From the NCBI RefSeq assembly GCF_028281565.1, contig NZ_JANQJQ010000004.1, forward strand, positions 62,001-126,000: a stretch of DNA of 64,000 nt, written 5' to 3'. Positions 15,182 to 57,754 of this stretch are shown piece after piece. Below the pieces are notes generated by a model that was not told where the DNA came from, made no database searches, and saw nothing but the letters and a program-made list of their open reading frames with translations. The stretch's first letter is position 1, and each line of letters begins with the position of its first letter. A program made the position numbers and the translations under genes. Source of the DNA: Seonamhaeicola sp. Its GTDB lineage: Bacteria; Bacteroidota; Bacteroidia; Flavobacteriales; Flavobacteriaceae.

Positions 15182-17755
15182 ATGAATAGGAAAAACATGA
15201 ATGGTTTAAGTCTGATTCTCGTCGGCCTTATTCTGTTTTTAACGACAGCTTGCACAGAAAGCTCCAGGGAAACTCCAAGAGTTATTGAAGACTTTAATTA
15301 TGACTGGAAATTTAATTTAGGTGAACTGGAAAATGCTCAAAAAAATGAGTTCGACGACTCTGGCTGGGAAACTTTAAGACTCCCTCACGACTGGAGTATT
15401 GAAAACGGTTATACACAGGAAGCATCTGCTGCCAGTACCGGTTTTGTTCAGGGCGGTATAGGTTGGTACAGAAAGTCATTCAACCTAAGCGAAGCAGATA
15501 AAGGAAAGGTGATCTCTGTAGTTTTTGACGGTGTTTATAACAATTCCAGCGTATGGATCAATGGCCATTTCTTAGGGACACGCCCTTACGGCTATAGTAC
15601 ATTTTCATATAACTTAACCGACCATTTAAACTACGATACACCAAATATCATTGCTGTTAAAGTAGACAGAAAGGCTTATGCCGATTCCAGGTGGTACACG
15701 GGTTCCGGCATCTATAGAAAAGTGCAGCTTGTAAAAACAAATCCGTTACATGTTGCGCAATGGGGCGTTCAAATCACAACTCCAGAGGTATCAGAAAGCC
15801 GGGCCACGGTGCATATAAAAACCATATTGGAAAACGCCGGTGAAACATCCGATGACAATTTAAAGTTACAATTATCGATAGTTGACAAAACTAATGCTCT
15901 TGTCGCTCAAAAATTAATTAATGTTTCAGGTATAAATGAGGAGACTTCCGCAGATATTCTAATTGAAAACCCACAGTTATGGCATTTAGATTCGCCTAAT
16001 TTATACACACTTAAAGTCAATGTATTACAAAACGAAAACATCATTGATCACGTTTCTGAAGTATTTGGCATTCGTTCCTTTGAGTTTGATGCCAACAAAG
16101 GGTTCTTTCTAAATGAAAAGAATGTAAAAATCAAAGGTGTCAATCTGCATCATGATGCCGGTACGGTAGGTGCCGCGGTTCCAAAAGCCATTTGGGAATA
16201 CCGTTTGGATCAATTAAAATCAATAGGTGTCAATGCCATCAGAATGGCCCATAATCCGCATGCGGTAGAACTTATGGAAGTTTGTGATGAAAAAGGCATT
16301 TTAGTCATGGCCGAGGCTTTTGACGAGTGGTTCAACCCTAAAGGTAAGAGCAAAGCTTACTTAGGTGATAATGCGGCTAAAGGTGAAATAGCCAGGTCTT
16401 ATCCTGAATCCTTTAACGAATGGGCGGAACGTGATCTCAAAGATTTGATTCGTCGTGATTTCAATCATCCCTCGGTAATTATGTGGAGTATTGGAAATGA
16501 AATTGAATGGACCTTCCCGCATTATTCCCAAACATTCGCTGAAGTAAATAAAGAATCCAGTGAACAAGGTTATGAACTGGTTCCTGATTACAACCCTGAG
16601 AAAATTGCAAGAATCCTAAAAGACTTCCATGAAGGCGAAGAACCTTTAGCTAAAATGGCCGCACAATTGGTGAGATGGACTAAAGAAGTTGATACCACCA
16701 GAGCTGTTACTTGTGGAAGCGTCTTGCCTTCAGTTGGGCTGGTAACTGGCTATGGCAAAGTGGTGGATGTTTTTGGCTTCAACTACAGAGCCACAGAGTA
16801 TGATGTTGCTCACAAAGCGTATCCTGATTTAAAAATATTAGGCTCCGAAAATTGGGGTGCTTATAGTGAATGGAAAGCTGTTAAAGACCGTGATTTCATT
16901 CCCGGGATATTTGTCTGGACTGGATTTGCCTATTTAGGAGAAGCCGGCCCCTGGCCTCGTAAAGGCTTAAATATTTCGTTTTTTGATTTTGTCGGTTTTA
17001 AAACGCCCCGAGGACATTTCTACGAATGTCTTTGGAAAGAAACTCCTAAAATATACATGGTAACAACACCGGCCGATGCCTCTGAATTTTCTTTTACAGA
17101 AAGAGAAGGCTGGAAATTTGATATGCAGTACACTGCTCCACCGGTATGGAAAATGCTACGCAAATGGGAATGGTATAACGTGTATCCTAAATGGAAGTAC
17201 AATGACAATGACCCTATTGTGGTTCAAACCTATACTAACTGTGAAGAAGCCGAATTATTCTTAAATGGTTCATCTTTAGGCAAACAAAAACTATCGGATT
17301 TTAGTGAAGCGGATAATATTATAAAATGGTTAGTACCCTATAAAGCCGGTGAACTAAAAGTCATTGGTTATAATAAAGGCGAAAAGGTAGATGAATATAC
17401 CCTTAACACCACCGAAAATAAAGTAGCTAAAATAGAGTTAGAATCTAATAAAGATACTTTATCTGCTGATGATTACGATGCCCTTGTAGTTACGGCTAAA
17501 CTATTTGACGAAAACGGCAATTTATTAACCGATTTAGATAAAGACATCACGTTTAACCTTTCCGATAATTGTAAAAACTTAGGTGTTGATAATGGTTGGG
17601 AATACAATGTACAACCTCATAAGACCAATACCGTTACAAGTCACAACGGGAAAGCAATAGTTATTGTTCAATCTACTAAAGAAGCTGGAACTATTGAAGT
17701 TTCAGCATCCAGTAGTGGTGTTAGTTCTGAGGCTTTAAAAATTGAAGTAAAATAA
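15182..17755 (+). CDS. Glycoside hydrolase family 2 lipoprotein (beta-galactosidase/beta-glucuronidase type)
   Basis: WKFNLGE...LPHDWSIE, GGIGWYRKSF, VWINGHFLGTRPYGYSTF, IRMAHNPH, MWSIGNEIEW. Confidence 0.9.
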   Translation: MNRKNMNGLSLILVGLILFLTTACTESSRETPRVIEDFNYDWKFNLGELENAQKNEFDDSGWETLRLPHDWSIENGYTQEASAASTGFVQGGIGWYRKSFNLSEADKGKVISVVFDGVYNNSSVWINGHFLGTRPYGYSTFSYNLTDHLNYDTPNIIAVKVDRKAYADSRWYTGSGIYRKVQLVKTNPLHVAQWGVQITTPEVSESRATVHIKTILENAGETSDDNLKLQLSIVDKTNALVAQKLINVSGINEETSADILIENPQLWHLDSPNLYTLKVNVLQNENIIDHVSEVFGIRSFEFDANKGFFLNEKNVKIKGVNLHHDAGTVGAAVPKAIWEYRLDQLKSIGVNAIRMAHNPHAVELMEVCDEKGILVMAEAFDEWFNPKGKSKAYLGDNAAKGEIARSYPESFNEWAERDLKDLIRRDFNHPSVIMWSIGNEIEWTFPHYSQTFAEVNKESSEQGYELVPDYNPEKIARILKDFHEGEEPLAKMAAQLVRWTKEVDTTRAVTCGSVLPSVGLVTGYGKVVDVFGFNYRATEYDVAHKAYPDLKILGSENWGAYSEWKAVKDRDFIPGIFVWTGFAYLGEAGPWPRKGLNISFFDFVGFKTPRGHFYECLWKETPKIYMVTTPADASEFSFTEREGWKFDMQYTAPPVWKMLRKWEWYNVYPKWKYNDNDPIVVQTYTNCEEAELFLNGSSLGKQKLSDFSEADNIIKWLVPYKAGELKVIGYNKGEKVDEYTLNTTENKVAKIELESNKDTLSADDYDALVVTAKLFDENGNLLTDLDKDITFNLSDNCKNLGVDNGWEYNVQPHKTNTVTSHNGKAIVIVQSTKEAGTIEVSASSSGVSSEALKIEVK

Positions 17756-17756
17756 T

Positions 17757-18581
17757 ATGCGGTATTTCAAACTTTGGTGCTTTCTTTTAACTATGGGTTT
17801 TGTTGCTCAATCATATGCACAAGACACAATAATAACATCATGGAAAGATTTTGAACGTCATGACCTTAAGTTTGAAAATAGGGAAACAAGAGTAGTAATT
17901 CCAAAGAAAGCTCTTGAAGGAACCCCCTGGGTCTGGAGAGCCAGATTCCCGGAATATCATGCTGGAATTGATAGTGCTTTAGTAGCACAAGGATTTCATG
18001 TGGTTTATATAAATACAGATCATATGTTCGGCAGTCCGGAAGCGGTTCAAGTAAGAAATAGATTTTACGATTTTATTGTTTCGAAATACAAGTTTCAAAA
18101 AAAAGTGGCTCTTCACGGACATAGCAGAGGCGGTTTGTTTACCTATAACTGGGCCAAGAAAAACCCTAAAAAAGTAGCCTGTATTTATGTGGATGCCCCG
18201 GTTTGCGATTTTAAAAGTTGGCCTGCCGGTTTTGGAAAAAGCGATGGGAGTAAAAAAGATTGGGAACAATTAAAAAAAGCTTATGGTTTTAATTCTAACG
18301 AAGAAGCCAAAGCGTATACGGATAACCCTATTAATAATTTAGAATTGTTAGTTAAGGCTAAAGTCCCTATTTTGCATACCATCGGATTAAATGATGACGT
18401 CGTTCCCCCTGCTGAGAATTCTATTTTGTTGGTGAATAATTATATTCGTTTAGGAGGTATGGCAACCGTATATCCATGTATTGAAGGCATTCAAAAATCA
18501 AAAGGGCATCATTACGCCATCGATAATCCTCAAATCGTTATAGATTTTATAAAAAAATATTCCATTTCAAATTCAAATTAA
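17757..18581 (+). CDS. Secreted alpha/beta hydrolase (possible carbohydrate esterase)
   Basis: Signal peptide; nucleophile elbow GHSRGG; late-acid region LNDDVVPPAENS and catalytic-type His in GHHYAID. Confidence 0.7.
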   Translation: MRYFKLWCFLLTMGFVAQSYAQDTIITSWKDFERHDLKFENRETRVVIPKKALEGTPWVWRARFPEYHAGIDSALVAQGFHVVYINTDHMFGSPEAVQVRNRFYDFIVSKYKFQKKVALHGHSRGGLFTYNWAKKNPKKVACIYVDAPVCDFKSWPAGFGKSDGSKKDWEQLKKAYGFNSNEEAKAYTDNPINNLELLVKAKVPILHTIGLNDDVVPPAENSILLVNNYIRLGGMATVYPCIEGIQKSKGHHYAIDNPQIVIDFIKKYSISNSN

Positions 18582-19603
18582 TGAGCATCAAGAAGACCGA
18601 ACAGATTACCATTCATGATATTGCAAGAGCTTTGAACATAGATAGTTCCACAGTGTCCAGGGCACTTAATGATAGTCCGCGCGTGTCTTCTAAAACCAAA
18701 CAACGTATCCTTGAAAAAGCTACGGAACTTGGGTATCAACGCAACAGTTTAGCATCAAATTTACGTACCAACAAAACCAATACCATAGGCGTTATTGTTC
18801 CCAGAATTTCGCGTAATTTCTTTTCCAGTGTTATTTCCGGTATTGAAGATACTGCCCAGGAAGCCGGTTATAATGTTATCATTTGCCAGTCTTTTGAAAG
18901 CCTGGAAAGAGAAAAAAAGATCATGGAGACCTTAATGGCCAATAGGGTGGATGGTATTTTGATTTCCATTTCTATGCACACTGTCAATTATGATCACCTA
19001 AAGCCGTATTTAAATCTTGGCGGTTCTATCGTATTCTATGACAGACCCTGCCATTTTGAGAACTGTTCAAGCATCAGTATTAACGATTATAAAGCGAGCT
19101 TTCAGGCTACGGAGCATTTAATACAGAACGGCTGTAAAAACATTGTTCATTTCTCCGGCCCGCAACTCATTGACTTATATAAAAACAGAAAACAGGGGTA
19201 TGTGGATGCCTTAAAAAAGTACGGACTTGAATTTAACGAAGCTTACTGTTTAGAATCAAAACTTTCGGAAGAAGACGGTGTTATTTTCGCCAAAAAAATT
19301 CTGGAAATGGGACATATTGACGGTATCTATTCTTCTAATGATACCGCTGCCATTAGTGCCGTACAGTACCTGAAAAGTCAGGGTGTAAATATCCCAAAAG
19401 ATATTGCCGTAGTTGGATTTAACAATGACCCTATCTCTTCAGTTATTGAACCCGGATTGACCACTATAAACCAACCTGATTTTGAAATGGGTAAAATGGC
19501 ATCAACTTTACTCATCAATCACATTGAAAACAAAAAGACCAAACCGGAATCGAAGGTTTTAGATATAGAACTCGTTATCAGGAATTCTTCTAAACACAAC
19601 TAA
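18581..19603 (+). CDS. LacI family transcriptional regulator
   Basis: ITIHDIARALNIDSSTVSRALNDSPRVS HTH, hinge NSLASNLRTNK. Confidence 0.9.
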   Translation: MSIKKTEQITIHDIARALNIDSSTVSRALNDSPRVSSKTKQRILEKATELGYQRNSLASNLRTNKTNTIGVIVPRISRNFFSSVISGIEDTAQEAGYNVIICQSFESLEREKKIMETLMANRVDGILISISMHTVNYDHLKPYLNLGGSIVFYDRPCHFENCSSISINDYKASFQATEHLIQNGCKNIVHFSGPQLIDLYKNRKQGYVDALKKYGLEFNEAYCLESKLSEEDGVIFAKKILEMGHIDGIYSSNDTAAISAVQYLKSQGVNIPKDIAVVGFNNDPISSVIEPGLTTINQPDFEMGKMASTLLINHIENKKTKPESKVLDIELVIRNSSKHN

Positions 19604-19614
19604 ACTCTTACCAG

Positions 19615-20802
19615 ATGAAAATCACTAATGCCCTTTTATTTTGTCTTGCTATACTCTGCTTTTCCTGTAAAGGGGAGAAAAAAGCAACACAAAATAATGA
19701 AACACCGCTTTTAAAGGCTGAAAAGCAATTAGCCCTCTTATTGCAGGATGCAGAAAAAGCAAATAGAATTCCCAGAACCTTAGATGAGGAAGGCAATATA
19801 CACTGGACCAATCCAAAATTTGATTGGACCGAAGGTTTTTTCCCCGGAAGCTGCTGGTATTTATATGAAGCAACCCAAGATGACCAATGGAAATTGGCTG
19901 CCGAAAAATTTCAGGCTTTTTATGAAGCCCACAAATACAAAACCTCTAACCATGACCTGGGGTTTATCTTTAATTGTTCTTATGGAAACGGCTATAGGCT
20001 TACCAAAAATGAAGCTTTTAAAGATATCATGACCACTGCTGCCGATTCTTTACTGACCAGGTTTAATCCGAATGTGGGCTGTATTAAAAGCTGGGATGTT
20101 GACAGTGGTTGGCAAGCTGAACGCGGATGGAAATTCCCGGTAATTGTAGATAATATGATGAATTTGGAACTCCTTTTTAAGGTAAGTGAATTTACGAGTG
20201 ATCCTAAATATAAAGAAGCCGCTATTACTCATGCCAATACTACTATAAAAAACCATTTTAGAGATGATAATAGTTCCGTTCACGTTGTTGATTATGATCC
20301 TGATACCGGAGCGGTAAGAGGGAAATATACGGCACAAGGATATGCTAATGAAAGTTCCTGGGCTCGTGGACAAGCCTGGGGGCTATATGGTTTCACAGTT
20401 TGTTACAGGTTTACAAAAGATAAAACTTATTTAGAGCAAGCTGAGAAAATCGCCGCATATATTTTAAATTTTGAAGGGACTCCCAAAGACGGTATTCCTT
20501 ATTGGGATTATCATGCTCCCAATATCCCCAACGAACCCAGGGATGTATCGGCTGCAACTATCACTGTATCGGCTTTATTAGAATTAAACACCTATTCTGA
20601 TCGAGATTACATGCCTGCCATTGATAACATAATGACCTCACTGGCCTCAGATGATTATACTGCTAAAATTGGTGAAAACAAACACTTTGTTTTAAAACAC
20701 AGTGTGGGAAGTATTCCACACGGAAATGAAATTGACGTGCCTCTTAATTATGCCGATTACTATTATTTGGAGGCATTAAACAGATATAAAAACTTAAAAT
20801 AA
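19615..20802 (+). CDS. GH88 unsaturated uronyl hydrolase lipoprotein
   Basis: DWTEGFFPGSCWYLYEAT, SNHDLGFIFNCSYGNGYRL, ESSWARGQAWGLYGF: GH88 motifs; lipobox LCFSC. Confidence 0.9.
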   Translation: MKITNALLFCLAILCFSCKGEKKATQNNETPLLKAEKQLALLLQDAEKANRIPRTLDEEGNIHWTNPKFDWTEGFFPGSCWYLYEATQDDQWKLAAEKFQAFYEAHKYKTSNHDLGFIFNCSYGNGYRLTKNEAFKDIMTTAADSLLTRFNPNVGCIKSWDVDSGWQAERGWKFPVIVDNMMNLELLFKVSEFTSDPKYKEAAITHANTTIKNHFRDDNSSVHVVDYDPDTGAVRGKYTAQGYANESSWARGQAWGLYGFTVCYRFTKDKTYLEQAEKIAAYILNFEGTPKDGIPYWDYHAPNIPNEPRDVSAATITVSALLELNTYSDRDYMPAIDNIMTSLASDDYTAKIGENKHFVLKHSVGSIPHGNEIDVPLNYADYYYLEALNRYKNLK

Positions 20803-20808
20803 CACGTC

Positions 20809-22359
20809 ATGCAAAAAATATGGATTCTAAGTTTGTTCTCAATGTTGGCCTTAAACTCTCAGGAACAGCCTAAAACGGTTTGGGAAGATTTTGTTTATGC
20901 CAAAAAAAATGGAACAACACCTATTTTACCCGATTTCTCATATGTCGGTTATAAATATAGTGAAGTCCCAATCCCTGATGTAGACTATAAGACATTTGAT
21001 GTAACTGAATTTGGTGCTGTTCCTAATGATACGCTTTCGGATAAAAATGCAATCAAAAAAGCTCTTGAAGCTGCCGAGAAAAATGGTGAAGGTGTCGTTT
21101 ATTTTCCAAAAGGGAAATACTATATAAACACATACGATGACGACTACAGCATCATAAATATCACATCCTCACGAATTGTATTCAGAGGCGAAGGCTCCGG
21201 AGAACATGGAACTATCTTGTTTTTCCAGAGAGATTTTCCTCCGGCAGACCCCAATAAACTGTGGACATGTCCTTCCGCAATAAAAGTGGCTTGTAACAAG
21301 AAAGATGAGGAAATCACAAAAGTTATTTCGGACTCTAAAAGAGAAACTTTTAAAGTAGAAGTTAAAGATGCTTCAAAAATAAAAAAAGGTGATTGGGTCA
21401 TTCTAGAAGTGCAAAACAACAGTAAAGATTTGATTGAATATGACCTTCAACCGCTTACTCCGGAGCCCATATGGACATCTATCTTAAATAAGGGCGTTCA
21501 AGTTAATGAAAGACACCAGGTGGCAAATGTTAGTGGTAATACAATAACGTTTATGGAACCCATTCATTATGATGTACAAGCCAAACACAACTGGAGTTTA
21601 ACGACTTTTGAACACTTAGACCACGTGGGGTTTGAAAATATAGCGTTTGAAGGCAATTGGCTCAAGGAGTTTGTTCACCACAGGTCTGCTCAGGACGATG
21701 GGGGTTGGAGTATATTACATATTTCAGATGTTATAAATTCCTGGATTAAGGATTGCTCCTTTAAGAATGTAAACAATTGTGCCAGTTTTGCATCCTCAGC
21801 GGCCAGTACTGCCCTTAACGTGACCATAGATGGCAAAATTGGACATAGTGCCATACACGCTCAAGGTTCTACGGGAATCCTTCTGGCTAAGATTTATGAC
21901 AATGCTGGCATGCATCACTCTGTGGGTGTTGCCGGCGGCAGTAATATTGGAAGCGTTATCTGGCGATCTAAATATCCGCCACACACTTGTTTTGAATCGC
22001 ATTCATCCCAACCCCGTTGTACCTTATTTGATAATGTAGAAGGTGGCTTTATGACCGGACGAGGTGGAGGTGCTAAATTTAACCTGCCAACTCATGGACG
22101 CTATCTGGTCCTTTGGAATTATAAGGAAACTGATGGACCGGAGTCTAATTTTGATTTTGTGGCAAAAGATTCCGATTACTGGAGGTTTGTCCCACCAATA
22201 ATTGTTGGCTTCCACGGTACAGGAACAACCTTTAATAAAGACGAGGTACAGGTTTTAGAAAGTTTGGGTACTCCCGTAAAACCGGAATCGTTGTTTGAAG
22301 AGCAGTTAAAACTACGTTTAGGTAAATTGCCGGAATGGTTAGATAATATCAACGATTGA
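20809..22359 (+). CDS. Pectate-lyase-superfamily-like beta-helix protein (DUF4955-like)
   Basis: DVTEFGAVPNDTLSDKNAIKKALEAAEKNGEGVVYFPKGKYYI N-terminal beta-helix start; remaining sequence Asn/Gly-rich helix repeats. Confidence 0.7.
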   Translation: MQKIWILSLFSMLALNSQEQPKTVWEDFVYAKKNGTTPILPDFSYVGYKYSEVPIPDVDYKTFDVTEFGAVPNDTLSDKNAIKKALEAAEKNGEGVVYFPKGKYYINTYDDDYSIINITSSRIVFRGEGSGEHGTILFFQRDFPPADPNKLWTCPSAIKVACNKKDEEITKVISDSKRETFKVEVKDASKIKKGDWVILEVQNNSKDLIEYDLQPLTPEPIWTSILNKGVQVNERHQVANVSGNTITFMEPIHYDVQAKHNWSLTTFEHLDHVGFENIAFEGNWLKEFVHHRSAQDDGGWSILHISDVINSWIKDCSFKNVNNCASFASSAASTALNVTIDGKIGHSAIHAQGSTGILLAKIYDNAGMHHSVGVAGGSNIGSVIWRSKYPPHTCFESHSSQPRCTLFDNVEGGFMTGRGGGAKFNLPTHGRYLVLWNYKETDGPESNFDFVAKDSDYWRFVPPIIVGFHGTGTTFNKDEVQVLESLGTPVKPESLFEEQLKLRLGKLPEWLDNIND

Positions 22360-22363
22360 GATT

Positions 22364-23926
22364 ATGCAACTTAGAATTTTCTTTTTGCTGACCCTAGTTT
22401 TTTCTTTTTTAAACTGTAAAAACGAAAAAGCAGTCATTAGAATTGAAGAAAGAAAACCAAATGTACTCATCGTTTTCCCTGATCAATTACGACGCTATAG
22501 CGCCGGTTTTTGGTCCGAAGTGCCTTATAAAGATTTAGCACAGGGCAAAGGTGATCCGGTTGTAACACCCACCATGGACAGGTTGGCAAAAAATGGGATT
22601 GTTTTTACTAACGCGGTTAGTAATTTCCCTTTATGTAGTCCCTACAGAGGTATGATGTTGTCGGGAAGATACCCTGAACAAAATGGTATTTGGAATAATT
22701 GCAAAGTTGGGCGTAATGAAAGTTTAAGAGATGATATTGAAACCATTCCTGACTTATTCTTCAAAGCAGGTTATAGTACGTCTTATTTTGGAAAATGTCA
22801 TTGGTTAAGAAATGACCCCTTATTTGATAAAGACGGGAATTATGTAGGTTCCACAGAATCTCCCGGTGGTCATCATGTGAATCAGTACGATACCTATGTG
22901 CCCCCGGGGAAATCACGGCATAACATTGAGTATTTTTATCAGGCTTTAAAAGATGAACATTTTAACCCAAGAGTGTATTCCAATGACCCCGGTGCTATAG
23001 AAGGCAAAAAAGATGGTGAATTACACTTACCAAAAATATTTTCGGCTAAAAACGAAGCTGAAAAAATAATTGATTATTTAAGAAATGAACGGGGACAACG
23101 TGATGCTAACAAACCATTCTGTATGATCTGGTCCATGAATCCACCTCATAATCCCTGGGATGACGAGAACACCGATTTGGAATCGCTTCGCAAATACTAT
23201 GACACGGACAAATTCCCTGAAATTGATAACCAATTGGTGGTTAGAGAAAACGCCGATTTAAAAGTTGCCCATTATGCACGTCATTATTATGCCAACGTCA
23301 CGAGTGCCGATAAATATATTGGTCAGGTTATCAATGAGCTTGACGATATGGGCGCGTTGGATAACACCATTATTTTGTTTAGTTCAGATCATGGTGAAAT
23401 GATGGGAAGCCATTCAAAAACGGGGAAGAATACTTTTGAAACAGAATCACTTGGCATCCCTTTTATTGCACACTGGCCTAAGGGCATTAAACCGGGAACG
23501 GAAGATGTTTTATTTAGTGTTCCCGATGTATTACCAACGGTTATGGGGTTGGCCGGATTACATGATAAAATACCATCGGACATTGAAGGCACTGATTTTT
23601 CGTCTTTATTGACCTCAGATAATGCAACTATTGAAAAGCCGAAAGCTGTGTTATTAATGTTAGGGAATTCTCGTGGTGTTTTAACCGACAGATATACATT
23701 ATGCTTAAAAGAAAGTAAAAAATCCTGGGATAAACACGAGGTTAACACCATTGATGAAGCCTATTTTTATGATAATCAGGCAGACCCTTACCAAAAAAAT
23801 AAGATCAAATTAGAAGATAACCCTGAGGTTTCAAAAACTTTATTAAACCATTTGGCAGTGCTTCTTAAACAAACCAATGATCCCTGGTTTCAGCAAAAAA
23901 AGCACAGCGATTTAATACCATACTAA
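22364..23926 (+). CDS. S1-type sulfatase
   Basis: Formylglycine motif CSPYRGMMLSGRYPEQNG; metal motif SSDHGEMMGSHSKTGK. Confidence 0.9.
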   Translation: MQLRIFFLLTLVFSFLNCKNEKAVIRIEERKPNVLIVFPDQLRRYSAGFWSEVPYKDLAQGKGDPVVTPTMDRLAKNGIVFTNAVSNFPLCSPYRGMMLSGRYPEQNGIWNNCKVGRNESLRDDIETIPDLFFKAGYSTSYFGKCHWLRNDPLFDKDGNYVGSTESPGGHHVNQYDTYVPPGKSRHNIEYFYQALKDEHFNPRVYSNDPGAIEGKKDGELHLPKIFSAKNEAEKIIDYLRNERGQRDANKPFCMIWSMNPPHNPWDDENTDLESLRKYYDTDKFPEIDNQLVVRENADLKVAHYARHYYANVTSADKYIGQVINELDDMGALDNTIILFSSDHGEMMGSHSKTGKNTFETESLGIPFIAHWPKGIKPGTEDVLFSVPDVLPTVMGLAGLHDKIPSDIEGTDFSSLLTSDNATIEKPKAVLLMLGNSRGVLTDRYTLCLKESKKSWDKHEVNTIDEAYFYDNQADPYQKNKIKLEDNPEVSKTLLNHLAVLLKQTNDPWFQQKKHSDLIPY

Positions 23927-24085: not shown

Positions 24086-24793
24086 CTAATCTGTTGTAAA
24101 ACTCCAAACCTGCCCAATGGCCTGTCCGCCTTTATCATCTTTTACAACTACCTTCCAATAGTAGGTTGTAGCGGCACTTAAATTAACGCTTAACGTTTTA
24201 TCTGATTGATTATCTCCAACCTTAGTTGTCGGGTCACTATTGGTATCAAAATACACATCGTAGGTTAACGGATCGTTATCCACATCAGAAGCATCCCATT
24301 CTAAAGTAGTAGAAGCCGTATTTAAAGCTGCATCCAGTTGTGGAGCAACCAATTCCGGTGAAAAAGGCAAATGATTGGTTTCGCCTTCGCCCTCCGTATA
24401 AAATTGATAGGTTGACGAATACGCACTACTCGCATTTTTACTATCCACCGCTTTAACACGCCAATAATAAGCAACACCTTTTTCTAAAGTGACCGTTCTG
24501 GATGTTCCTGAAACCGTAATCGATTCTTCTATGGCGGAAAAATCATTCTTTTTTGATATCTCCAGAACATAAGAAACAGCGTCTCCGTCGGGATCCGTGG
24601 CTGCAGCCCATTTAAACTCTAAAACATTTGTGGTGCACAACAAATTATTAGTTGGATAAGTTAAGGACTCTACGGCTGAAGGGGGTTGATTTTCCTTTGG
24701 TGGGTCAACAGGATCATCATCACCGCCGCCTCCACCACTGGAACATGATGCTATTAAAATCCCTAATATAACCAGTAAACTTATTCTTTTCAT
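24086..24793 (-). CDS. 235-aa FnIII-like surface lipoprotein, cassette copy 1
   Basis: Lipobox IASCSSGGGGGDDDP; two FnIII-like units ending YYWRVKAVDS and YYWKVVVKDDKGG. Confidence 0.75.
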   Translation of the reverse strand: MKRISLLVILGILIASCSSGGGGGDDDPVDPPKENQPPSAVESLTYPTNNLLCTTNVLEFKWAAATDPDGDAVSYVLEISKKNDFSAIEESITVSGTSRTVTLEKGVAYYWRVKAVDSKNASSAYSSTYQFYTEGEGETNHLPFSPELVAPQLDAALNTASTTLEWDASDVDNDPLTYDVYFDTNSDPTTKVGDNQSDKTLSVNLSAATTYYWKVVVKDDKGGQAIGQVWSFTTD

Positions 24794-24934
24794 ACGTTTA
24801 AATTTTAGTAATTATCTATTAATAAATTAATTATAAAATTGAGAACGTATGTAACCACTCCGTTCTCACATTAAAATTTTTAAACATTCTCTTTTATGAA
24901 ATAATGTTTAAAATTTATTAATGTTCGTTTCATC

Positions 24935-27544
24935 TTATTTATTCTTTATAATTTTAACAATAGTAGTAGGATCTTTACTTATCACTTTAGCAAAATAGAT
25001 GCCCGGCGGACTATCTGCCAAACTAAGGTTGATGCTTCCATTCTCAATAACATACCATTTAGAGGATATTAGTTGCGAATGAATATTATATAGTTCTATC
25101 TCAATAGTCCCTTCATTAACAGGTAACAAAAATTGAAAATCTCCGGGCGTTGGATTGGGATAAGCAACAATACTTTTATAAAAATCGATGGTCTCCATGA
25201 TTTCGCCTTCACAATCCTTAGAAGATTTTACGCTAACTATGTCACCCTGATTTACAGTTAAGGAAAGCTCCGAAGCCGATGTTTGGTATAAAAACTCACC
25301 ATTCACCGAAACATTAAACGGTGGCGTTCCTTCAGTAATACTAACGGAATACGATTCTGCTTTTAAAGACGATTTCCCTGTGATATGAGTACCTTCTTTT
25401 ATTTCAACACTAAAACACTGACTTTCACTTCCTCCATCTATTGAAATACATAGATCATAGGTTCCCGGATCTATATTTTCTAAAGTCTTTTCATTAGTGA
25501 ACATGTAATCTGTTCCGTCAAAACTAACGATATAATCCTCTGCAAAATTAGCAGCAATAGTAACTTTTCCATTATTCTTATCCGGACAGGTCTCTGAGGT
25601 TACCGCAATGGTAAACTGTGTATCCAGAACAGACCACGGATCGCCTTCACCGGTATCTTCAATAGCATTAACACCTGCCGTCCAGCGCGTACCTCCCACT
25701 TCGTAAGCACCAATATCAGGAGCACTTCCTTTATAAGGTTTATCAAAACCCGAAATAACCTGTGCCTGATCCATTACAGAGCTTCCAACTTTCGGCATGA
25801 AGTTTTGGTTATCGGCATCTTCAAAAGGCGATTCTGAAGTAATTAAGTTATCCTGAATATCAAAGTCATTAGCAGTTTCACTAAACCAATCTCCTTTGTT
25901 AGAGAAGTTGTTATATATTTTGTTATTCTCTTGTACCCGACCATTCACCCAGGAATCCATAGCACGTTCCGCATTCCAAATGGTATTATGGTAAAAATCA
26001 AGATGTGTATTGTTCCAGTTTACCTGGTAACCGCTCCAGGACACATTCCAAACCACATTGTGATGCACCGTGTAGCCTTTGCTATCATTATCCAGGTAAA
26101 TTCCAGCAGCTTTAGCTGGATCACTTGGGTTGTGGGAATAAGCAGGTGCCGTAGCATCATGAAACCAATTGTGGTGAATTTCGTTATTCTTTAAACTAGT
26201 GTTCCCTACCGTATAAAACACCCCGGAATCGCTGTTTATTCTTTGGGAAGCAGACACATCATTATAAGCTATTTCACAATTTTGACCTGCCACGTACATA
26301 CCATCCCGGCCGGTATTAAAAATGGTGTTTTTTAATATTTTCATATTATCACCGCTTGATCTTATAGGAGATGCATGTATACCTACATAATCCGTGTTAC
26401 TAATAATATTCCCTTCAAGCGTACAATCATCAGCAGCCCAACCGGCAATTAATATACCACTTACGGAACTGTGATTTACGGTACAACCTTTAATGATCGT
26501 ATTATCTCCTAAAACCTCTATGGCAGCCTCACCCACCTGAGCGGATGTATTTGTAAGGGAATCATGGCCTTCGCTACCATGTGTTATTTTACAATTAAGA
26601 ATTTCATTATTATCGGCATTATTGTGAATTTTTATACTTCCACCGAAAAAATTAATCCCTTCAATCCTGATATAGTCTCCCTGGATTTGAGCAGCAAACT
26701 TACGTGTGGCGTATTCAACTGTATTATCCGCCGGCATGCTACCATCTGCCGTTTGAAAATAAAGCACTTTTGCAGAGGCATCATAATACCATTCCCTGGC
26801 ATGATCTAATGCTTCCAATTTATTGAACAGGAATAATTGCCCACGGTTATTCCCGGGATAATTTCTCCACGTTTGCGGATTATGGGTACTAAACGGCCAT
26901 TTTGTAGTGTCAACAGATGTAAAATCTATCCTTGTTGATGTACTGGATGTTATGGTTCTGGTCCAACTGGCCCCGGAGTGAGCACCTAAATAATACACCA
27001 AGCCACCGGTCCAGTCTATATTTTGAATACCGCTTACTATAAAATGACTGCCATCCCCATCATCGACAGGATGACAATCTACAGTCCAACGATTATTATC
27101 CGCGTTATTTGGCCACCTGGCCAGGTCCATGTAGTTCTCATTATGGTAAACCGCTCTAAAACGACTTTCAATACCCATATCTACACTTACCTTATAAATG
27201 TTTCCACTATGTACCTGCCAACCATTTAACTTAGCCGTTGCCCTAATTTCTACATCTTCGCCATCAGCTGCTTTAAAGGTTAAATAGTTTCCAGACGTTC
27301 CGTTCTTGTTTATTATTAGTTCTTCTTCATATATGCCACCTTTAATGATACAAACATCGCCGGCAGACATCACTGATACCGCTTTACTGAAGGTTTTAAA
27401 AGGACTTGCCTCAGTTCCTGAATTGGAATCATCACCATCTGTTGCAACATAAATATTTTGCGCAGAAACAAATGAACCGATGAAAAAAAGTATAAAAAAG
27501 AGTAACCGTGTAGCTTTTTTCATATTTGCAATTTTAAGTTTCAC
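24935..27544 (-). CDS. T9SS-exported right-handed beta-helix protein, cassette copy 1
   Basis: IYVATDGDDSNSGTEASPFKTFSKAVSVMSAGDVCIIKGGIYEE; NNEIHHNWFHD, GYTVHHNVVWN repeats; C-terminal T9SS-type sorting region AYPNPTPGDFQF...GIYFAKVISKDPTTIVKIIKNK. Confidence 0.85.
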   Translation of the reverse strand: MKLKIANMKKATRLLFFILFFIGSFVSAQNIYVATDGDDSNSGTEASPFKTFSKAVSVMSAGDVCIIKGGIYEEELIINKNGTSGNYLTFKAADGEDVEIRATAKLNGWQVHSGNIYKVSVDMGIESRFRAVYHNENYMDLARWPNNADNNRWTVDCHPVDDGDGSHFIVSGIQNIDWTGGLVYYLGAHSGASWTRTITSSTSTRIDFTSVDTTKWPFSTHNPQTWRNYPGNNRGQLFLFNKLEALDHAREWYYDASAKVLYFQTADGSMPADNTVEYATRKFAAQIQGDYIRIEGINFFGGSIKIHNNADNNEILNCKITHGSEGHDSLTNTSAQVGEAAIEVLGDNTIIKGCTVNHSSVSGILIAGWAADDCTLEGNIISNTDYVGIHASPIRSSGDNMKILKNTIFNTGRDGMYVAGQNCEIAYNDVSASQRINSDSGVFYTVGNTSLKNNEIHHNWFHDATAPAYSHNPSDPAKAAGIYLDNDSKGYTVHHNVVWNVSWSGYQVNWNNTHLDFYHNTIWNAERAMDSWVNGRVQENNKIYNNFSNKGDWFSETANDFDIQDNLITSESPFEDADNQNFMPKVGSSVMDQAQVISGFDKPYKGSAPDIGAYEVGGTRWTAGVNAIEDTGEGDPWSVLDTQFTIAVTSETCPDKNNGKVTIAANFAEDYIVSFDGTDYMFTNEKTLENIDPGTYDLCISIDGGSESQCFSVEIKEGTHITGKSSLKAESYSVSITEGTPPFNVSVNGEFLYQTSASELSLTVNQGDIVSVKSSKDCEGEIMETIDFYKSIVAYPNPTPGDFQFLLPVNEGTIEIELYNIHSQLISSKWYVIENGSINLSLADSPPGIYFAKVISKDPTTIVKIIKNK

Positions 27545-38106: not shown

Positions 38107-39771
38107 TTACTGTTTGGGCTTTAAATTTTTGATTATGAAAATAACATCGGCCTCGTGCCTCCAGGGGCGTTCATCCCAGAATCCATATTTATGCTTAAAG
38201 ACTAACTTTTCTTCTTTTGAGAATTCTCCCGTAAGGGTATTAAACCACTGTCGAGTCGCATTCGAGTAATCAAACTCGGCATCCAGTTGTCGTTTTATAT
38301 CATCAGAATGCACTTCTTTAGGAATGTATTGCATCACGACGCCTTCCTTATAATTGGTTAGGTTATATGACCTAACATTATATTTGGTTACAGGTTCAAA
38401 GTTTTCAAAGTTTACGGTTTTAAATAAATCCCGCATGTATTTGAAATATTCGAACTTGGGTTTGTAGACATCGTCCGGTTGCTCAAAAGGATTATGGATA
38501 ATAGCGTTCCAGGAGGTTCCCTGCCAATAATAGGTAGTATAAGTTCCGGCAAATAAACACAGATAGTTTCTTCTTAAACAGGCTTCGGCATTGCTATAAC
38601 CTCCGGGAAAGATCTCATAGGGTGATTCTTCATACCCGCCATGTTCAATGTTGAAAATGGGCTTATCAGGAAACTGTTTATAAGCACTTAGCATACTTTC
38701 ATGTAGCGATAATTTCCAATCCTGAGTAGAAATAAAATCTACTTCATCTTTATATTTTCTACAAAAACTATAAGCATGAACAGATAACAAACGATCATAA
38801 CTATCTAATTCACGTGTACGTTTAGTTCGCTCTAAAATATGTTCAACAACATTTTTATTTTGAGCAACCGCTATCTTGTTGGTTGCTTCTTTTGATACAT
38901 CCCAAACTATATTAGGAAATGCCTGATATCTTTTAATTACATGATCGTAGTACATATTATCTGCTTCAGACCTAGCTTCCGGCCAGGCTACACGCTTATT
39001 CCATACGTAAATCATTAAATGGCTTATGATTTCATGTTCGTGCATTTGAGCGACTACCTGATCGAAATGTTTAAAGAAACCCATATTCAAGGCACTATAA
39101 TCCGGATTACTGTTAGAACCTAGAAACGGAAAAATATCTTCTCGTTCGCCATAATTATGCTCCGGATGTTTCAGCAAGTTTTTATCCCTTACCCAATCAA
39201 AATCCAAACCATAGGCATATACGTTCATCACAATTTGATTGAAACCGTTCTTGTTTAACAGGCCTAGTAAATGTTTGGTTTTGGGCAAATCTTTATTACC
39301 ATAATCCAGGGCGTATAACCAATCGCACTCAAAGGCTAAATTGAAGTAATGGGTCCCATCCTCATAAAAGAAATGTCTTTTATTATCGTCGCTTAGAACA
39401 ATGCCTCCATGCCGATCTTTTTTCTGATTTTGAGTGATATTAATTGCCCCCTTCTTCCCTTTGAGACCTTTAATATCCGACTGAATCACAAAAGACTTTT
39501 TTCCGGTATTTGAACTGGAATACCGGAACACCCACTCGTTACCACCGTTATAAAAGAGCGGGACTTTTTGCTCACCTTCTTCTGATCTAACCATAGCATA
39601 AACCTCCTGTTGGAATGGTTTTTCAACCTTTTGTTTTGCTATATACACCAAATCATTGACCTGCCATTGTTGGGAGGTAATGGTTCCCGGAGCCTTCCAG
39701 ACTTTAATTTGGGCAAATCCCAATGGCCCCAATAACAGGGCCCATACTAAAAACCGAGTCATTCTGTTCAT
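38107..39771 (-). CDS. DUF5060/DUF4038-type putative glycoside hydrolase
   Basis: N-terminal beta domain then GTHYFNLAFECDWLYAL, FNQIVMNVYAYG, IVWDVSKEATN, PIFNIEHGGYEESP. Confidence 0.7.
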   Translation of the reverse strand: MNRMTRFLVWALLLGPLGFAQIKVWKAPGTITSQQWQVNDLVYIAKQKVEKPFQQEVYAMVRSEEGEQKVPLFYNGGNEWVFRYSSSNTGKKSFVIQSDIKGLKGKKGAINITQNQKKDRHGGIVLSDDNKRHFFYEDGTHYFNLAFECDWLYALDYGNKDLPKTKHLLGLLNKNGFNQIVMNVYAYGLDFDWVRDKNLLKHPEHNYGEREDIFPFLGSNSNPDYSALNMGFFKHFDQVVAQMHEHEIISHLMIYVWNKRVAWPEARSEADNMYYDHVIKRYQAFPNIVWDVSKEATNKIAVAQNKNVVEHILERTKRTRELDSYDRLLSVHAYSFCRKYKDEVDFISTQDWKLSLHESMLSAYKQFPDKPIFNIEHGGYEESPYEIFPGGYSNAEACLRRNYLCLFAGTYTTYYWQGTSWNAIIHNPFEQPDDVYKPKFEYFKYMRDLFKTVNFENFEPVTKYNVRSYNLTNYKEGVVMQYIPKEVHSDDIKRQLDAEFDYSNATRQWFNTLTGEFSKEEKLVFKHKYGFWDERPWRHEADVIFIIKNLKPKQ

Positions 39772-39778
39772 AATAGTT

Positions 39779-41551: not shown

Positions 41552-41729
41552 TAACTCGTAGCTTTTAAGAATTCACAAATTAGTCATAAAACCTGTACAA
41601 ATCCATTATATATGGCCTTAAAACTACAACTTATGACAAAGTCTTTTGAAGATTGAAACTATACAAAGCTTATACCTGAATTTTAATATAATGGGATTGT
41701 TATTATTTTTTATCAAACCCCATATTGCC

Positions 41730-41973
41730 TTATTTGTCCTTTAGCCGTTGTTTTAAAAACATGGCATGAAGTTTTTTAAGCATTTTTGGATGTTGTGATG
41801 CTATGTTTTTAGACTCTTTGGGGTCATCATTTAAATTAAACAATTCCCACTCTTTAATTTGAGGTTCTCCGGTACCGTATTTCACAATTTTCCAGATAAT
41901 CATTTTTTGTTTTAACCGCCAAACAAGAAACTACCGCTAACGCAAGAACAAGTGGTAAAGCATTTAATCTCAT
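41730..41973 (-). pseudogene. Collapsed sulfatase: signal peptide plus C-terminal tail only, out of frame
   Basis: Minus strand from 41973: MRLNALPLVLALAVVSCLAVKTKN..., then in another frame MIIWKIVKYGTGEPQIKEWELFNLNDDPKESKNIASQHPKMLKKLHAMFLKQRLKDK-stop (sulfatase C-terminal pattern). Confidence 0.7.
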
Positions 41974-41982
41974 ACCTTTGCT

Positions 41983-43374
41983 TTAAAGATCTCTACCGTA
42001 ATCCCACCCTTTGCGTGGTACCGGCCCACTAACATATTTATTCAGCTCCGGCCTGTTGGTAATTCCTTTTTCAGGGTCCCATTCTATTCTCCCGCCAACT
42101 TTAGCCGCCAGGACACCTAATAACATCATTACCGTAAACGGTGATGCGAAATCAAAATTCGCCCCTGGCTCCGGTCCTTCTCCTTTAATGGCTCTTATCC
42201 ATTCGGCAAACGGCCCACCCTTAACACGAGGATATTTCTCGGTCGGGAATCCTTTGGCTTCAAAAGCCAACATTTCCTCTTTATTAGCTAACCTTGGATT
42301 GTTCGATCTTACATCGGTATACCCTACCGTTTTATCCCCATAATAGAGAGTTCCTCCACCGGGAAGTTTTTCATCCCATGTCCACGCTTCAGGCTTTTCT
42401 GGTCGAAACGCTTTGCCTCCCGGACCATTATACCAATAGAAAACGCAGGGTGCTTTACTTCCACGTTCCTTAAATTCCCAACGAACCCGATTTCCATCAG
42501 GGCACATCCATGCATTGCCCCCAACTTTTTCTTCTAATTCAACAACCACAGGTTCATAGAGGTCTAAAATAAACACCGGTGCATCTGAAATATGCGGCAT
42601 CCAGTCGCCAAAAATGCCGTTACCAAATTGATTATACGCTCTCCAACTTTTTGGGTGATAGAACTTGTGAAAGGGGGTGTCTGCAGGCCTTGGCCCCAAC
42701 CAAAGATCCCAATTTAAATTATCGGGTATTGGGTGTACTTCAGGGGGGAAGGTTTTCATTTTATGCCAGTACCCGGCTTTTCCCGGATATTCCTTTTCAA
42801 AATTTGGTCCCGGTCTCCAGGAGTGTACTTCTCTAATTTGTCCAAATACATCGGCTTCATACCATTCTTTCATTTGCCGAATACCATCAAAGGTATGCCC
42901 TTGAACTGCCATATTAGTAACTACGCCGTATTTTGCCTTAGCTTTCTGAAGTGTTTGCGCTTCCCATATACTATAAGTCAGGGGTTTTTGGGTACAAACA
43001 TGCTTACCCATTTCCATAGCGTGCATAGTTGCCACAAAATGCGTATGGTCCGGCGTATTAATACACACCGCATCAATCTCTTTATCCATTTTATCCAACA
43101 TCTCACGAAAATCTTCAAACTTCTTTGCTTTGGCAATTTCAGGATGCTTATCTAAATGTTGACCGAACATATTGGAGTCAACATCTGCAATGGCCACAAT
43201 ATTCTCGCCTTTACAGCCCGCATAGGCCATTCCTGCAATATTACCTGCACCAATCATGGCAATATTAAGTTTACTATTTGCGCTGGTTCCGAGCTTTCCA
43301 ATGCTATACGAAGGCAAGATCACCGCTCCTGCTCCTGCTGCCGCAGCGTTTCTTATAAATTGTCTTCTTTTCAT
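41983..43374 (-). CDS. Gfo/Idh/MocA family oxidoreductase with Tat signal
   Basis: [69 protein letters not shown]. Confidence 0.9.
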
Positions 43375-43391
43375 CTTATTAATTTTAATAT

Positions 43392-50488: not shown

Positions 50489-50490
50489 TC

Positions 50491-54302: not shown

Positions 54303-57050
54303 ATGCTAGAAAAACTTAAAATTAATAAATCGATAATTTCAATACTCACCCTGTTTATATGCCTTGGCTCTTATGCAAAAGATATTTATGTTGCTAAAAA
54401 TGGTGATGATAATAACGATGGGACCATAGATAATCCCTATTTAACCATTTCTAAAGCAGCAAGTGTGGCCGTGGCAGGTGATGTGGTCTATATAAGGGAA
54501 GGCACCTATGAAGAAACTTTAGCTCCTGCAAATTCCGGAACTCCCGGAAATCCGATTATTTTCCAATCCTATCCGGGAGAAAAAGTCATTATTTCAGCTA
54601 TGCAAGCCTTATCCGGGTGGACCCAAGATAGCGGTTCCATTTATAAAACAACTATTCCCTTTACTGATTTAGGGCAGGATAACTTCGTTGTAAATGACAA
54701 AACAGCTTTAAATTTAGCCAGATGGCCTAATAAAACAAGTGACGACCCATTTGCGCTTAACTCCCTTAGAAATACCGGAGGAAGTAATGGCGATGTAATT
54801 AATGGTGCTTATTTAACAGAGTCTACAATTCCCGGAATAGACTGGACCGGAGGTGCCCTTTGGTTCTACGGAGACAGACCCGGTTCCGGTTGGTTGGCCT
54901 GGAAACGTACAATTACCAGCAGCTCTGCCGGAAGAGTTAATTTTAACTTTACCGCCACCGATACCTGGGTAAGAACCTTTCATCCACCGGCCGATTTGGG
55001 GGATTTCTATCTGGAAGGTGTAAAAGCTGCTTTGGATTATGAAAACGAATGGTACTATGACAACAATACTAATGAATTATTTGTTCAACTACCCGGAGGT
55101 GCTGCTCCGGAAGATGGTAAAGTACATATGCGCAGGCGTCGTGAAGCCATAAACATAAAAGATAAAAGTTATATCCAAATTAGAAATTTAGCTGTTTATG
55201 GCGGCAATATTAATATGGAAGATTCTTCTACATGGCAAGCTAATGGAAATAACCGCACCACTAACAATGTGCTTTACGGGGTTTCGGCATTTTATGCCAA
55301 CCATACGCAAGGAGTAACAGACGGATCCCGAACTGGAAAAGCATCTGTTAAGGTTCAGGGATCTAATAATACTGTTGAAAAATGTGAAATTGCCTTTAAT
55401 TCCGGAGCGGGATTAGACGTTAGAGGAAACGACCATACGATTAGAAATAATTACATCCATGATTTTGATTTTTTAGCAAGTTATGACGGCCCTTTGATTA
55501 TCAGAGGAATACGTAACACACTGGTAGAGCGTAATACAGTTTTTAATGGAGGTAGAGATGCCATTCAATATAACGGAGACAGTAATGAGATAGCTTACAA
55601 TGATGTTTACAAAAGTAATCGCTTAGCAGATGACTGTGCCTTATTTTATACGGTTGGCCCAAGAGAAGCACTGACAGAAATTCATCATAACTGGTTTCAT
55701 GATACAGATTCTCCGGGAACCAAATACAAAGCAGCAGGCATTTATTTAGATAATAGTGCTTCAAAATATTTAGTGCATCACAATGTAGTTTGGAACACGG
55801 AATGGACAAACATTCAAATAAACTGGGATGGAGCGGATATTGAAATCTATAATAATACGCTTTGGAACGGATCTGAAGTCATGGGTGCATGGCATAAAGA
55901 GGGTACGCAGTTCACCAACGTAAAAGTTTGGAATAACTTGTCTGACGACGATAATTGGGAGCCTCAGTCTGATAAACAAAATAATTTAACGGTTACAGCC
56001 GATGTTTTTGTTAATGCCTCCAATGGAAATTTCCAATTAAAAGCAGGAGCTTCACCTATTGACCAGGGTAGAGAGATAGCAGGTATTACCGATGGCTTTA
56101 ATGGTGCTAAACCAGACGTTGGCGCATATGAGAATGGAGGTAATAATTGGACCGCCGGAATTGATTGGGAGCCACTTTATAGCCCGACAGGGAATGGATG
56201 TTACGGATTACCGGGCGAAAATTGTATACCTTTTGATCCGAATGATGATGATAACGACGGTGTTGCTAATGCCGATGATTTATGTCCTGATACCCCATTA
56301 GGAAGAACCGTTGATGTTGATGGTTGCGAGATTTTTACCTTGGCTGCCGATAATTTCAGGGTCAAAGGCATGGGTGAATCGTGTAGAACCAGTGATGATG
56401 GTGCTATTTCAATTACTTCTATAGAAACAACGCTTCAGTTTACAGCTAAAATCACAGAAACCGGCGCAGAAAAGGATTTCACCACAAGCGTTGAGTTTAC
56501 AGATTTAAGTGCCGGTAATTATACAGTGTGCATTACTACTACAGCCGATGCCAATTACGAGCAATGCTTTTTTGTAACTATTGTAGAACCGGAAGATCTG
56601 GCGGTAGTTTCAAAAATTGATAACTCTAAGAATCAGGTGACTTTAAATTTAAGCGGAGGCTCTACCTATAGTATCAATTTAAATGGCGAAATAACCTATA
56701 CAAAGCGAAGCCAAATAACACTGAACTTATCAAAAGGTTTAAACAACCTTTCTGTAAAGGCAGATAAAGACTGTCAGGGGCAGTATGACGAAATGATACA
56801 GGTATTTGATGACATAACTATTTTCCCTAATGCAGTAAAAGATCATTTTACCATAGCATTTGCCAATGAGGTAAAATCATTGGTAAATGTTCAGGTAGTT
56901 TCAGCAACAGGAAAAGTAGTGATCAATAAAGCACAGCCAGTAACGGGTCAAAGCATAACCATAAATACACAGTATTTAAGTGCAGGTATGTATTTTGTAT
57001 CTATAAAAGGCCAAAACATTAACACCCAATCTAAAATTATAAAACAATGA
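54303..57050 (+). CDS. T9SS-exported right-handed beta-helix protein, cassette copy 2
   Basis: DIYVAKNGDDNNDGTIDNPYLTISKAASVAVAGDVVYIREGTYEE; EIHHNWFHDTDSPG, YLVHHNVVWN; Asp-rich DPNDDDNDGVANADDLCPDTP linker; C-terminal sorting region FPNAVKDHFTIAF...GMYFVSIKGQNINTQSKIIKQ. Confidence 0.85.
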   Translation: MLEKLKINKSIISILTLFICLGSYAKDIYVAKNGDDNNDGTIDNPYLTISKAASVAVAGDVVYIREGTYEETLAPANSGTPGNPIIFQSYPGEKVIISAMQALSGWTQDSGSIYKTTIPFTDLGQDNFVVNDKTALNLARWPNKTSDDPFALNSLRNTGGSNGDVINGAYLTESTIPGIDWTGGALWFYGDRPGSGWLAWKRTITSSSAGRVNFNFTATDTWVRTFHPPADLGDFYLEGVKAALDYENEWYYDNNTNELFVQLPGGAAPEDGKVHMRRRREAINIKDKSYIQIRNLAVYGGNINMEDSSTWQANGNNRTTNNVLYGVSAFYANHTQGVTDGSRTGKASVKVQGSNNTVEKCEIAFNSGAGLDVRGNDHTIRNNYIHDFDFLASYDGPLIIRGIRNTLVERNTVFNGGRDAIQYNGDSNEIAYNDVYKSNRLADDCALFYTVGPREALTEIHHNWFHDTDSPGTKYKAAGIYLDNSASKYLVHHNVVWNTEWTNIQINWDGADIEIYNNTLWNGSEVMGAWHKEGTQFTNVKVWNNLSDDDNWEPQSDKQNNLTVTADVFVNASNGNFQLKAGASPIDQGREIAGITDGFNGAKPDVGAYENGGNNWTAGIDWEPLYSPTGNGCYGLPGENCIPFDPNDDDNDGVANADDLCPDTPLGRTVDVDGCEIFTLAADNFRVKGMGESCRTSDDGAISITSIETTLQFTAKITETGAEKDFTTSVEFTDLSAGNYTVCITTTADANYEQCFFVTIVEPEDLAVVSKIDNSKNQVTLNLSGGSTYSINLNGEITYTKRSQITLNLSKGLNNLSVKADKDCQGQYDEMIQVFDDITIFPNAVKDHFTIAFANEVKSLVNVQVVSATGKVVINKAQPVTGQSITINTQYLSAGMYFVSIKGQNINTQSKIIKQ

Positions 57051-57754
57051 TATATAGTAAATATTTAAAAGGAAGTTTATTAATAATACTACTAGCCCTT
57101 TTTAGCTGCAGTGGCGGTGGTGGAAGTGATGATGGTGGAGAAACAAAGATTCTTCCTCCGGAAGCGGCAGTCTTAGTCTCTCCGGAAAAGGATGAAGAGT
57201 GTAACCAGGGGAATGTGGTCTCTGATACAGAAAGCAGAGTCACATTTCGATGGAATGCGTCTGCAAACACTAATAACTATACACATGTTTTAAAGAATTT
57301 AGATACTGATGTTACTACCGAACAAAGCACGGCCACTACATCAATAACCTTAACAATTGGAAGAAATGTGCCTTATTCCTGGCAGGTTATATCTAAATCT
57401 AATAAAACGACTACTACCGCAACCAGTGAAACGTGGAAGTTTTATAACGCCGGTGAAGGTGTAGAAAATTATGCCCCGTTTCCGGCAGATTTAGTAGAGC
57501 CGGCTATGGGATCCGAAGTGCCATCTCCGGTTACGTTGAGTTGGAGTGGTAGTGATATTGATGGTGATATAGCTTCTTTTGATGTGTATTTGGGTACGGC
57601 CAACCCACCAACTACCTTACATGCTAACACAACAAATATGAGTATAGCGGACATAGCATTAAATGCCGATACTGTTTATTACTGGCGTGTCATAACTACT
57701 GACGAGGGTGGTTCTAATTCGCAATCACCGGTTTTTGAATTCAGGACAGAATAG
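57047..57754 (+). CDS. 235-aa FnIII-like surface lipoprotein, cassette copy 2
   Basis: Lipobox LFSCSGGGGSDDGG; two FnIII-like units ending YSWQVISKSNK and YYWRVITTDEGG; ATGA-type overlap with upstream gene. Confidence 0.75.
   Translation: MIYSKYLKGSLLIILLALFSCSGGGGSDDGGETKILPPEAAVLVSPEKDEECNQGNVVSDTESRVTFRWNASANTNNYTHVLKNLDTDVTTEQSTATTSITLTIGRNVPYSWQVISKSNKTTTTATSETWKFYNAGEGVENYAPFPADLVEPAMGSEVPSPVTLSWSGSDIDGDIASFDVYLGTANPPTTLHANTTNMSIADIALNADTVYYWRVITTDEGGSNSQSPVFEFRTE

Follow-up and report, generated by a model that had tools for sequence, protein, structure and literature searches.

The window analyzed here, a 64,000-nucleotide (nt) stretch of the Seonamhaeicola sp. contig NZ_JANQJQ010000004.1, carries two gene pairs, each consisting of a gene for a large beta-helix protein with a type IX secretion system (T9SS) sorting tail and a gene for a small lipoprotein with fibronectin type III (FnIII) domains. 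Each pair probably represents a portable cassette that docks T9SS type-A cargo on the cell surface, in which a module carried by the cargo is tethered to the outer membrane by a dedicated tandem-FnIII lipoprotein. The pairing of module and lipoprotein is independent of the cargo, given that at least 16 unrelated cargo groups exist among 142 distinct pairs, and it is the module, not the cargo, with which the lipoprotein co-evolves.

Gene pairs of the window and their shared module

A sequence-only reading of the window had placed the two pairs at these positions, and open reading frame coordinates and Pfam matches confirm both. The features of copy 1 and copy 2, in window positions, are as follows.

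24935..27544, minus strand: copy 1 cargo, 869 amino acids (aa), with signal peptide, beta-helix (GH141/GH120-like), putative docking module and T9SS type-A sorting tail
25685..27475, minus strand: copy 1 beta-helix part, approximately residues 24-620 (Pfam Beta_helix, AlphaFold2 (AF2) model, Foldseek matches to GH141 BT_1002 and GH120 XylC)
25175..25621, minus strand: copy 1 docking module (residues 642-790), which consists of a pair of beta-sandwich domains, contains Cys653, Cys699, Cys710 and Cys778 and is common to unrelated cargo
24947..25162, minus strand: copy 1 Por_Secre_tail (T9SS type-A C-terminal domain, CTD)
24086..24793, minus strand: copy 1 partner lipoprotein, 235 aa, with lipobox Cys17, Gly/Asp tether and two FnIII domains
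24635..24637, minus strand: codon of invariant Cys53 in the copy 1 lipoprotein
54303..57050, plus strand: copy 2 cargo, 915 aa, with beta-helix, TSP3-like linker, docking module and T9SS tail
56352..56807, plus strand: copy 2 docking module, residues 684-835, of a module clade unlike that of copy 1
56820..57041, plus strand: copy 2 Por_Secre_tail
57047..57754, plus strand: copy 2 partner lipoprotein, 235 aa, whose start codon overlaps the cargo stop by 4 nt
57200..57202, plus strand: codon of invariant non-lipobox Cys52 in the copy 2 lipoprotein (alignment of lipoproteins)

The length of 869 aa for the copy 1 cargo is counted from a GTG; translation more likely starts at the in-frame ATG of residue 8. 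Both window cargos match Pfam Beta_helix and Por_Secre_tail over the cut-off, and their C-termini (Por_Secre_tail/TIGR04183, over the curated cut-off) identify them as T9SS type-A. At the functional level, T9SS type-A substrates are defined by PorV-dependent export and tail cleavage by PorU.

The copy 1 cargo matches proteins of another contig of the same genome (C27) only across its last ~240 residues. Directly behind one of these proteins lies a third lipoprotein homolog, and the cargo of this third pair is of the G8/CEMIP type, with no similarity to the beta-helix protein before residue ~626. The region common to unrelated cargos is a module of ~150 residues immediately upstream of the T9SS tail. 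Given this third pair with a non-homologous cargo and the adjacency found across 151 genomes (see below), the recurrence of the pair is not due to chance.

The AF2 model of the module region presents two consecutive beta-sandwich domains, with block means mostly of 85-96 in the predicted local distance difference test (pLDDT). No Pfam or NCBIfam family matches the module over the cut-off, and a similarity to SprB repeats is marginal (E 0.015). Cys653 and Cys778 (copy 1 numbering) are each present in 155 of 156 distinct modules. Cys699 and Cys710 are either both there or both missing, which is the pattern expected of an internal disulfide, and they form the second strongest internal coupling in a mean-field direct coupling analysis (DCA).

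Distribution and gene order

Profile searches for the lipoprotein and the module were applied to 151 Flavobacteriaceae genomes. The lipoprotein profile has matches in 68 genomes and the module profile in 73; both occur in 66, the lipoprotein only in 2, the module only in 7, and neither in 76 (Fisher p=7e-32). At least 117 of the 142 lipoprotein matches are directly downstream of a module gene on the same strand, which bears out the regular adjacency of homologs that the sequence-only reading had made a check on its proposal. In the merged set of 156 distinct modules and 142 distinct module/lipoprotein pairs, the lipoprotein gene is directly behind 142 of the 156 modules. The gap between the genes is at most 0 nt in 57% and at most 20 nt in 94% of pairs, an overlap of 4 nt being the commonest arrangement (70 pairs); copy 1 of the window, at 141 nt, is an outlier.

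In a second, named genome collection, 58 of 73 lipoprotein profile matches are paired. Among the 15 unpaired ones, about five are FnIII stretches within large proteins, four are truncated or border a contig end, a start-codon artefact accounts for one and masked DNA precedes another, while three from Lutibacter and one other look truly solitary. In the three Lutibacter species (L178, L180, L189), the copy 1 lipoprotein has a close homolog that is present alone, with no module gene within ~900 nt upstream. A larger sample has the lipoprotein in 196 of 400 Flavobacteriaceae, and only two strong cases were found outside the family: G152, from another family of the order, and G530, from another family of the class. 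Organisms with the pair include Zobellia uliginosa, Z. russellii, Maribacter, Polaribacter, Algibacter, Lutibacter, Arenibacter, Flavobacterium succinicans and Seonamhaeicola algicola.

The window's own genome has 71 T9SS-tail matches, seven modules and three lipoproteins, each of the latter directly after a module gene. A further beta-helix cargo, the third, lies on the window's contig a short way beyond the window's edge (L014:9877-12762, minus strand). It has the full module with all four Cys and no lipoprotein gene behind it; it adjoins GH16, sulfatase and polysaccharide-lyase-like genes, and may use a lipoprotein in trans. At L015:9566-19001 (minus strand), three tandem G8-domain T9SS proteins, two with the module and the third without, are followed by a single lipoprotein gene after the last, which suggests one lipoprotein may serve two cargos. 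A GH86 beta-porphyranase-type enzyme at L016:5161-7809 (plus strand) carries the module with no adjoining lipoprotein; its Cys699/Cys710 pair is missing and the other two Cys are kept.

A natural fusion of module and lipoprotein was sought as proof of contact, and no intact one was found. The candidate from Zobellia uliginosa (L279:1147-1932, plus strand) is a decayed remnant, with the beginning of a module leading into a lipoprotein frame that is itself truncated, and the 1837-aa frame of G822 is a run of N.

Cargo diversity and co-evolution

When the N-terminal parts of the 142 distinct pairs were grouped by blastp, 28 groups were obtained, 16 of them with at least two members; some singletons are contig fragments. 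The cargo types recognized by Pfam are M12B reprolysin-type proteases, GH13 amylase, GH42-like, GH86 porphyranase-type, BNR_4, GH5 with CBM6, DUF4955 with F5/8C, VPS10 with TSP3, LRR, FG-GAP, Glyco_hydro_cc with laminin-G, and GH81. Proteins of the G8/CEMIP type are also among the module-bearing cargo.

Over these pairs, the pairwise distances of lipoprotein and module correlate with r = 0.79, a value reached in none of 500 permutations. The two halves of the module correlate with r = 0.60, and the module with its own sorting tail with r = 0.36-0.38. Distance correlations are inflated by physical linkage, and the tail, situated between the module and the lipoprotein gene, serves as the control: when corrected for noise by split-half reliability, the lipoprotein-module correlation is 0.94, against 0.62-0.63 for the tail with either of them. 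The partial correlation of lipoprotein and module given the cargo is 0.78, and that of lipoprotein and cargo given the module is 0.13. At the domain level, the highest value, 0.77, is that for the first FnIII domain with the second domain of the module.

When sorted into three clades by average linkage, lipoprotein and module fall into agreeing clades in 140 of 142 pairs. All 12 pairs of the beta-helix cargo group conform: five have module and lipoprotein of one clade, seven of the other, and none is mixed. The two copies in the window illustrate this: their beta-helices are homologous (37% identical), yet their module and lipoprotein clades differ.

These values uphold the recurrent, co-evolving pair of T9SS cargo and surface-type FnIII lipoprotein that had been proposed for the window. 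The assignment of the lipoprotein to the beta-helix enzyme, however, is not supported: genes of the same family also come after those for proteases, amylases, LRR and VPS10-type proteins, and the lipoprotein tree tracks the shared module and not the catalytic domain. A lipoprotein specific to the beta-helix enzyme was rejected in view of the shared module, the low partial correlation with cargo and the clade switch within one cargo family.

The partner lipoprotein

The AF2 model of the lipoprotein has two FnIII beta-sandwich domains (pLDDT 92.6), and Foldseek matches it to tandem FnIII pairs. In Pfam, fn3 is over the cut-off in copy 1 and under it in copy 2; copy 1 also has a SusE match. The two window lipoproteins are indeed identical in length, as had been pointed out, but little weight can be given to this: the family has a mean length of 234 aa, hence the shared 235 aa are no sign of a recent duplication, and the two proteins are only ~32% identical and belong to separate clades.

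Cys53 (copy 1 numbering) is conserved in 142 of 142 lipoproteins, and in 227 of 227 in a larger pair set; in 131 of the 142 it is the sole Cys outside the lipobox. The lipobox Cys is aligned in 141 of 142, and 140 of 142 have a lipobox by rule.

The lipobox and tether of copy 1 read IASC-SSGGGGGDDD. A start rich in Gly/Ser/Asp/Asn is found in 66% of the 142 lipoproteins, compared with 11% of the remaining lipoprotein candidates of these loci, and at least two acidic residues at +2 to +9 in 70%, compared with 55%. The lipoprotein export signals (LES) for the surface of C. canimorsus, B. fragilis and F. johnsoniae are QKDDE, SDDDD and SDDFE at +2 to +6 (PMC5080379), i.e., polar and then acidic residues, whereas the acidic residues of the tether are mostly at +5 to +8. 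The tether broadly resembles such acidic signals, slightly displaced, which is suggestive of a surface location and no proof of it.

Some lipoproteins are long variants in which the FnIII pair is joined by extra domains (L118, L144, L154 and L155, 618-624 aa; L162, L165 and L167, ~615-640 aa). Those in L118, L144, L154 and L155 sit behind a module gene, and the C-terminus of the L162 variant resembles the Fibrobacter succinogenes major paralogous domain.

Proposed mechanism and alternative explanations

In the mechanism we propose, the first gene would supply any extracellular domain (here the GH141-like beta-helix), then the module, then the sorting tail, and the second gene, usually translationally coupled, would supply an outer-membrane lipoprotein whose two FnIII domains follow a tether rich in Gly, Ser and Asp. 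The cargo would be exported through the T9SS, the tail would then be removed, and the cognate lipoprotein would bind the module, so that the cargo is held on the cell surface. The first FnIII domain has a single invariant Cys, which might form a disulfide bond to one of the two that are invariant in the module. Direct binding of module and lipoprotein is highly probable, and retention of the cargo on the surface by the lipoprotein is probable to a lesser degree. The sequence-only reading had the lipoprotein anchor, present or capture substrate; of these roles anchoring is the favored one, and capture of substrate for the beta-helix enzyme is not upheld.

A single Cys that never varies in an exported protein suggests a disulfide between molecules, whether with the module or within a homodimer, and functional disulfides to outer-membrane parts have a precedent in Bacteroidota in SprF-GldK (PMC12635249). 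A bond between Cys53 and a module Cys is nevertheless a possibility to which we give somewhat less than even weight. More tentative still is a family-wide disulfide-linked docking in Flavobacteriaceae, in which the cognate surface lipoprotein would capture the module on type-A cargo and the match of clades would set specificity.

Several points weigh against this mechanism. The module's two invariant Cys could pair together, which would leave Cys53 for a homodimer. Binding and localization of module and lipoprotein are deduced from sequence, and the acidic motif is slightly further from the lipobox than in the published signal (PMC5080379). Mean-field DCA on 227 pairs gave a top-10 mean of 0.99, compared with 0.80-0.97 in six shuffles, which is not clearly above the null; an earlier run on 142 pairs (1.00 compared with 0.71-0.84) was dropped after the larger one. 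Finally, 14 of 156 modules have no adjoining lipoprotein, including three in the window's genome outside the tandem G8 operon, so that either lipoproteins work in trans or the module serves some other purpose.

The lipoprotein could alternatively be a dedicated chaperone or an export or maturation factor, which would hold the folded module on the periplasmic side until the translocon accepts the cargo, or control tail cleavage, with no anchoring of the exported protein. This accounts equally well for the translational coupling, for the one-to-one pairing and for the co-evolution with the tail-adjacent module, and the surface exposure of the lipoprotein is read from its motif alone. Yet most members have the Gly/Ser/Asp tethers typical of surface lipoproteins, and more than 60 tail-bearing proteins of the window's genome have neither module nor lipoprotein, so export as such can do without the latter; we consider this explanation rather unlikely.

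A SusE-like lipoprotein that captures substrate or presents carbohydrate in the service of a beta-helix polysaccharide enzyme would fit the FnIII and SusE-like Pfam matches of copy 1, the many polysaccharide enzymes among the cargos and a window rich in sulfatase and glycoside hydrolase genes. It is very improbable given that M12B proteases, LRR and VPS10/TSP3 proteins have partners from the same lipoprotein family, that the tree of this family tracks the module and hardly the cargo, and that lipoprotein and module switch clade together within one beta-helix family. We give slightly less credence again to genetic hitch-hiking, in which module, tail and the gene for the lipoprotein would spread together as a recombining 3-prime cassette without interacting functionally. 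Exchange of the N-terminal cargo parts is clear, and physical linkage by itself produces correlated trees, but the tail, although encoded between module and lipoprotein, correlates far less with both, the unpaired Cys is invariant and translational coupling is maintained.

The beta-helix enzyme and its neighborhood

A profile of 15 beta-helix relatives searched against the PDB matched XylC (E 1.7e-28), 9rx2 (E 2.5e-26), which is titled 'parallel beta-helix repeat protein' with no family name, and BT_1002 (E 1e-19). Foldseek on the beta-helix model has BT_1002 as its best match (E 1.5e-17). We take BT_1002 to be a GH141 and XylC a GH120 enzyme; identity with either is 14-16% across the fold alignment. 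The suggestion of a GH141-like beta-helix is thus borne out by profile and fold, and 'GH141-like' is a fair label for this putative enzyme. We know of no such module or partner in the GH141 and GH120 families.

The neighborhood is a sulfatase-rich polysaccharide locus (15182-23926, 38107-53784 and 58408-63848 of the window) with GH2, GH28, GH29, GH43, GH88 and DUF4955 genes, as well as apiosidase-like genes and a hybrid two-component regulator. Its target might be a sulfated glycan with fucose and uronate. A divergent AraC gene beside copy 1 had been regarded as a possible dedicated regulator, but in the fetched stretches no relative of it is beside any of the 141 other pairs, including the ortholog of copy 1 (L077), which rules it out as a general cassette regulator.

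Comparison with known systems and significance

SprF is the cognate carrier of SprB, a T9SS type-B substrate with a dedicated partner (PMC9143113, PMC12635249). Type-B CTD/PorP-SprF-like pairs (SprB-SprF; PG1035-PorP) likewise join a T9SS substrate to a dedicated anchoring partner protein, but the tail in the window is type A, the partner is a tandem-FnIII lipoprotein and no beta-barrel, and it is a distinct module, ahead of the tail, that tracks the partner. Attachment by the PorU sortase to anionic lipopolysaccharide (A-LPS) in Porphyromonas gingivalis addresses the same problem, keeping type-A cargo on the surface (PMC10202324); it is general and calls for no cognate gene. A 2023 paper reports that A-LPS was not found in Flavobacterium (PMC9950754).

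The outer-membrane lipoproteins SusE and SusF also have beta-sandwich domains. In comparison with SusE (PF14292), the partner lipoprotein neighbors a module-bearing T9SS cargo and no SusC/SusD, it has a single invariant Cys, and its cargo extends beyond glycan enzymes. In cohesin-dockerin systems, a small portable module on diverse enzymes is recognized by a cell-bound partner. This is a functional analogy, with no homology seen; here there is no multi-cohesin scaffold, and one lipoprotein is encoded per cargo.

No description of the module or of the cargo-lipoprotein pair was found in the full-text literature searched, which covers few subscription journals and preprints, so that novelty is provisional. 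Three literature leads were dropped: the elastase FP0506 (PMC6414381), the tandem genes pep25/lbp26 (PMC9950754), and CelAly GH5-PL31, whose unknown domain before the CTD is not established as the docking module (PMC13235733).

Flavobacteria break down much of the sea's algal polysaccharide. If the proposed mechanism is true, module and cognate lipoprotein, present in about half of the sampled Flavobacteriaceae on enzymes, proteases and adhesin-like proteins, would be a general answer to how these bacteria retain type-A T9SS proteins on the surface without A-LPS attachment of the P. gingivalis type. Disulfide docking, if true, would be an undescribed route by which secreted proteins are covalently joined to a partner with a lipid anchor, in bacteria not known to anchor proteins by A-LPS. 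The pair would give a handle for recognizing tethered proteins in genomes and an unnamed domain family for annotation, and the module may be usable as a genetic tag for surface display.

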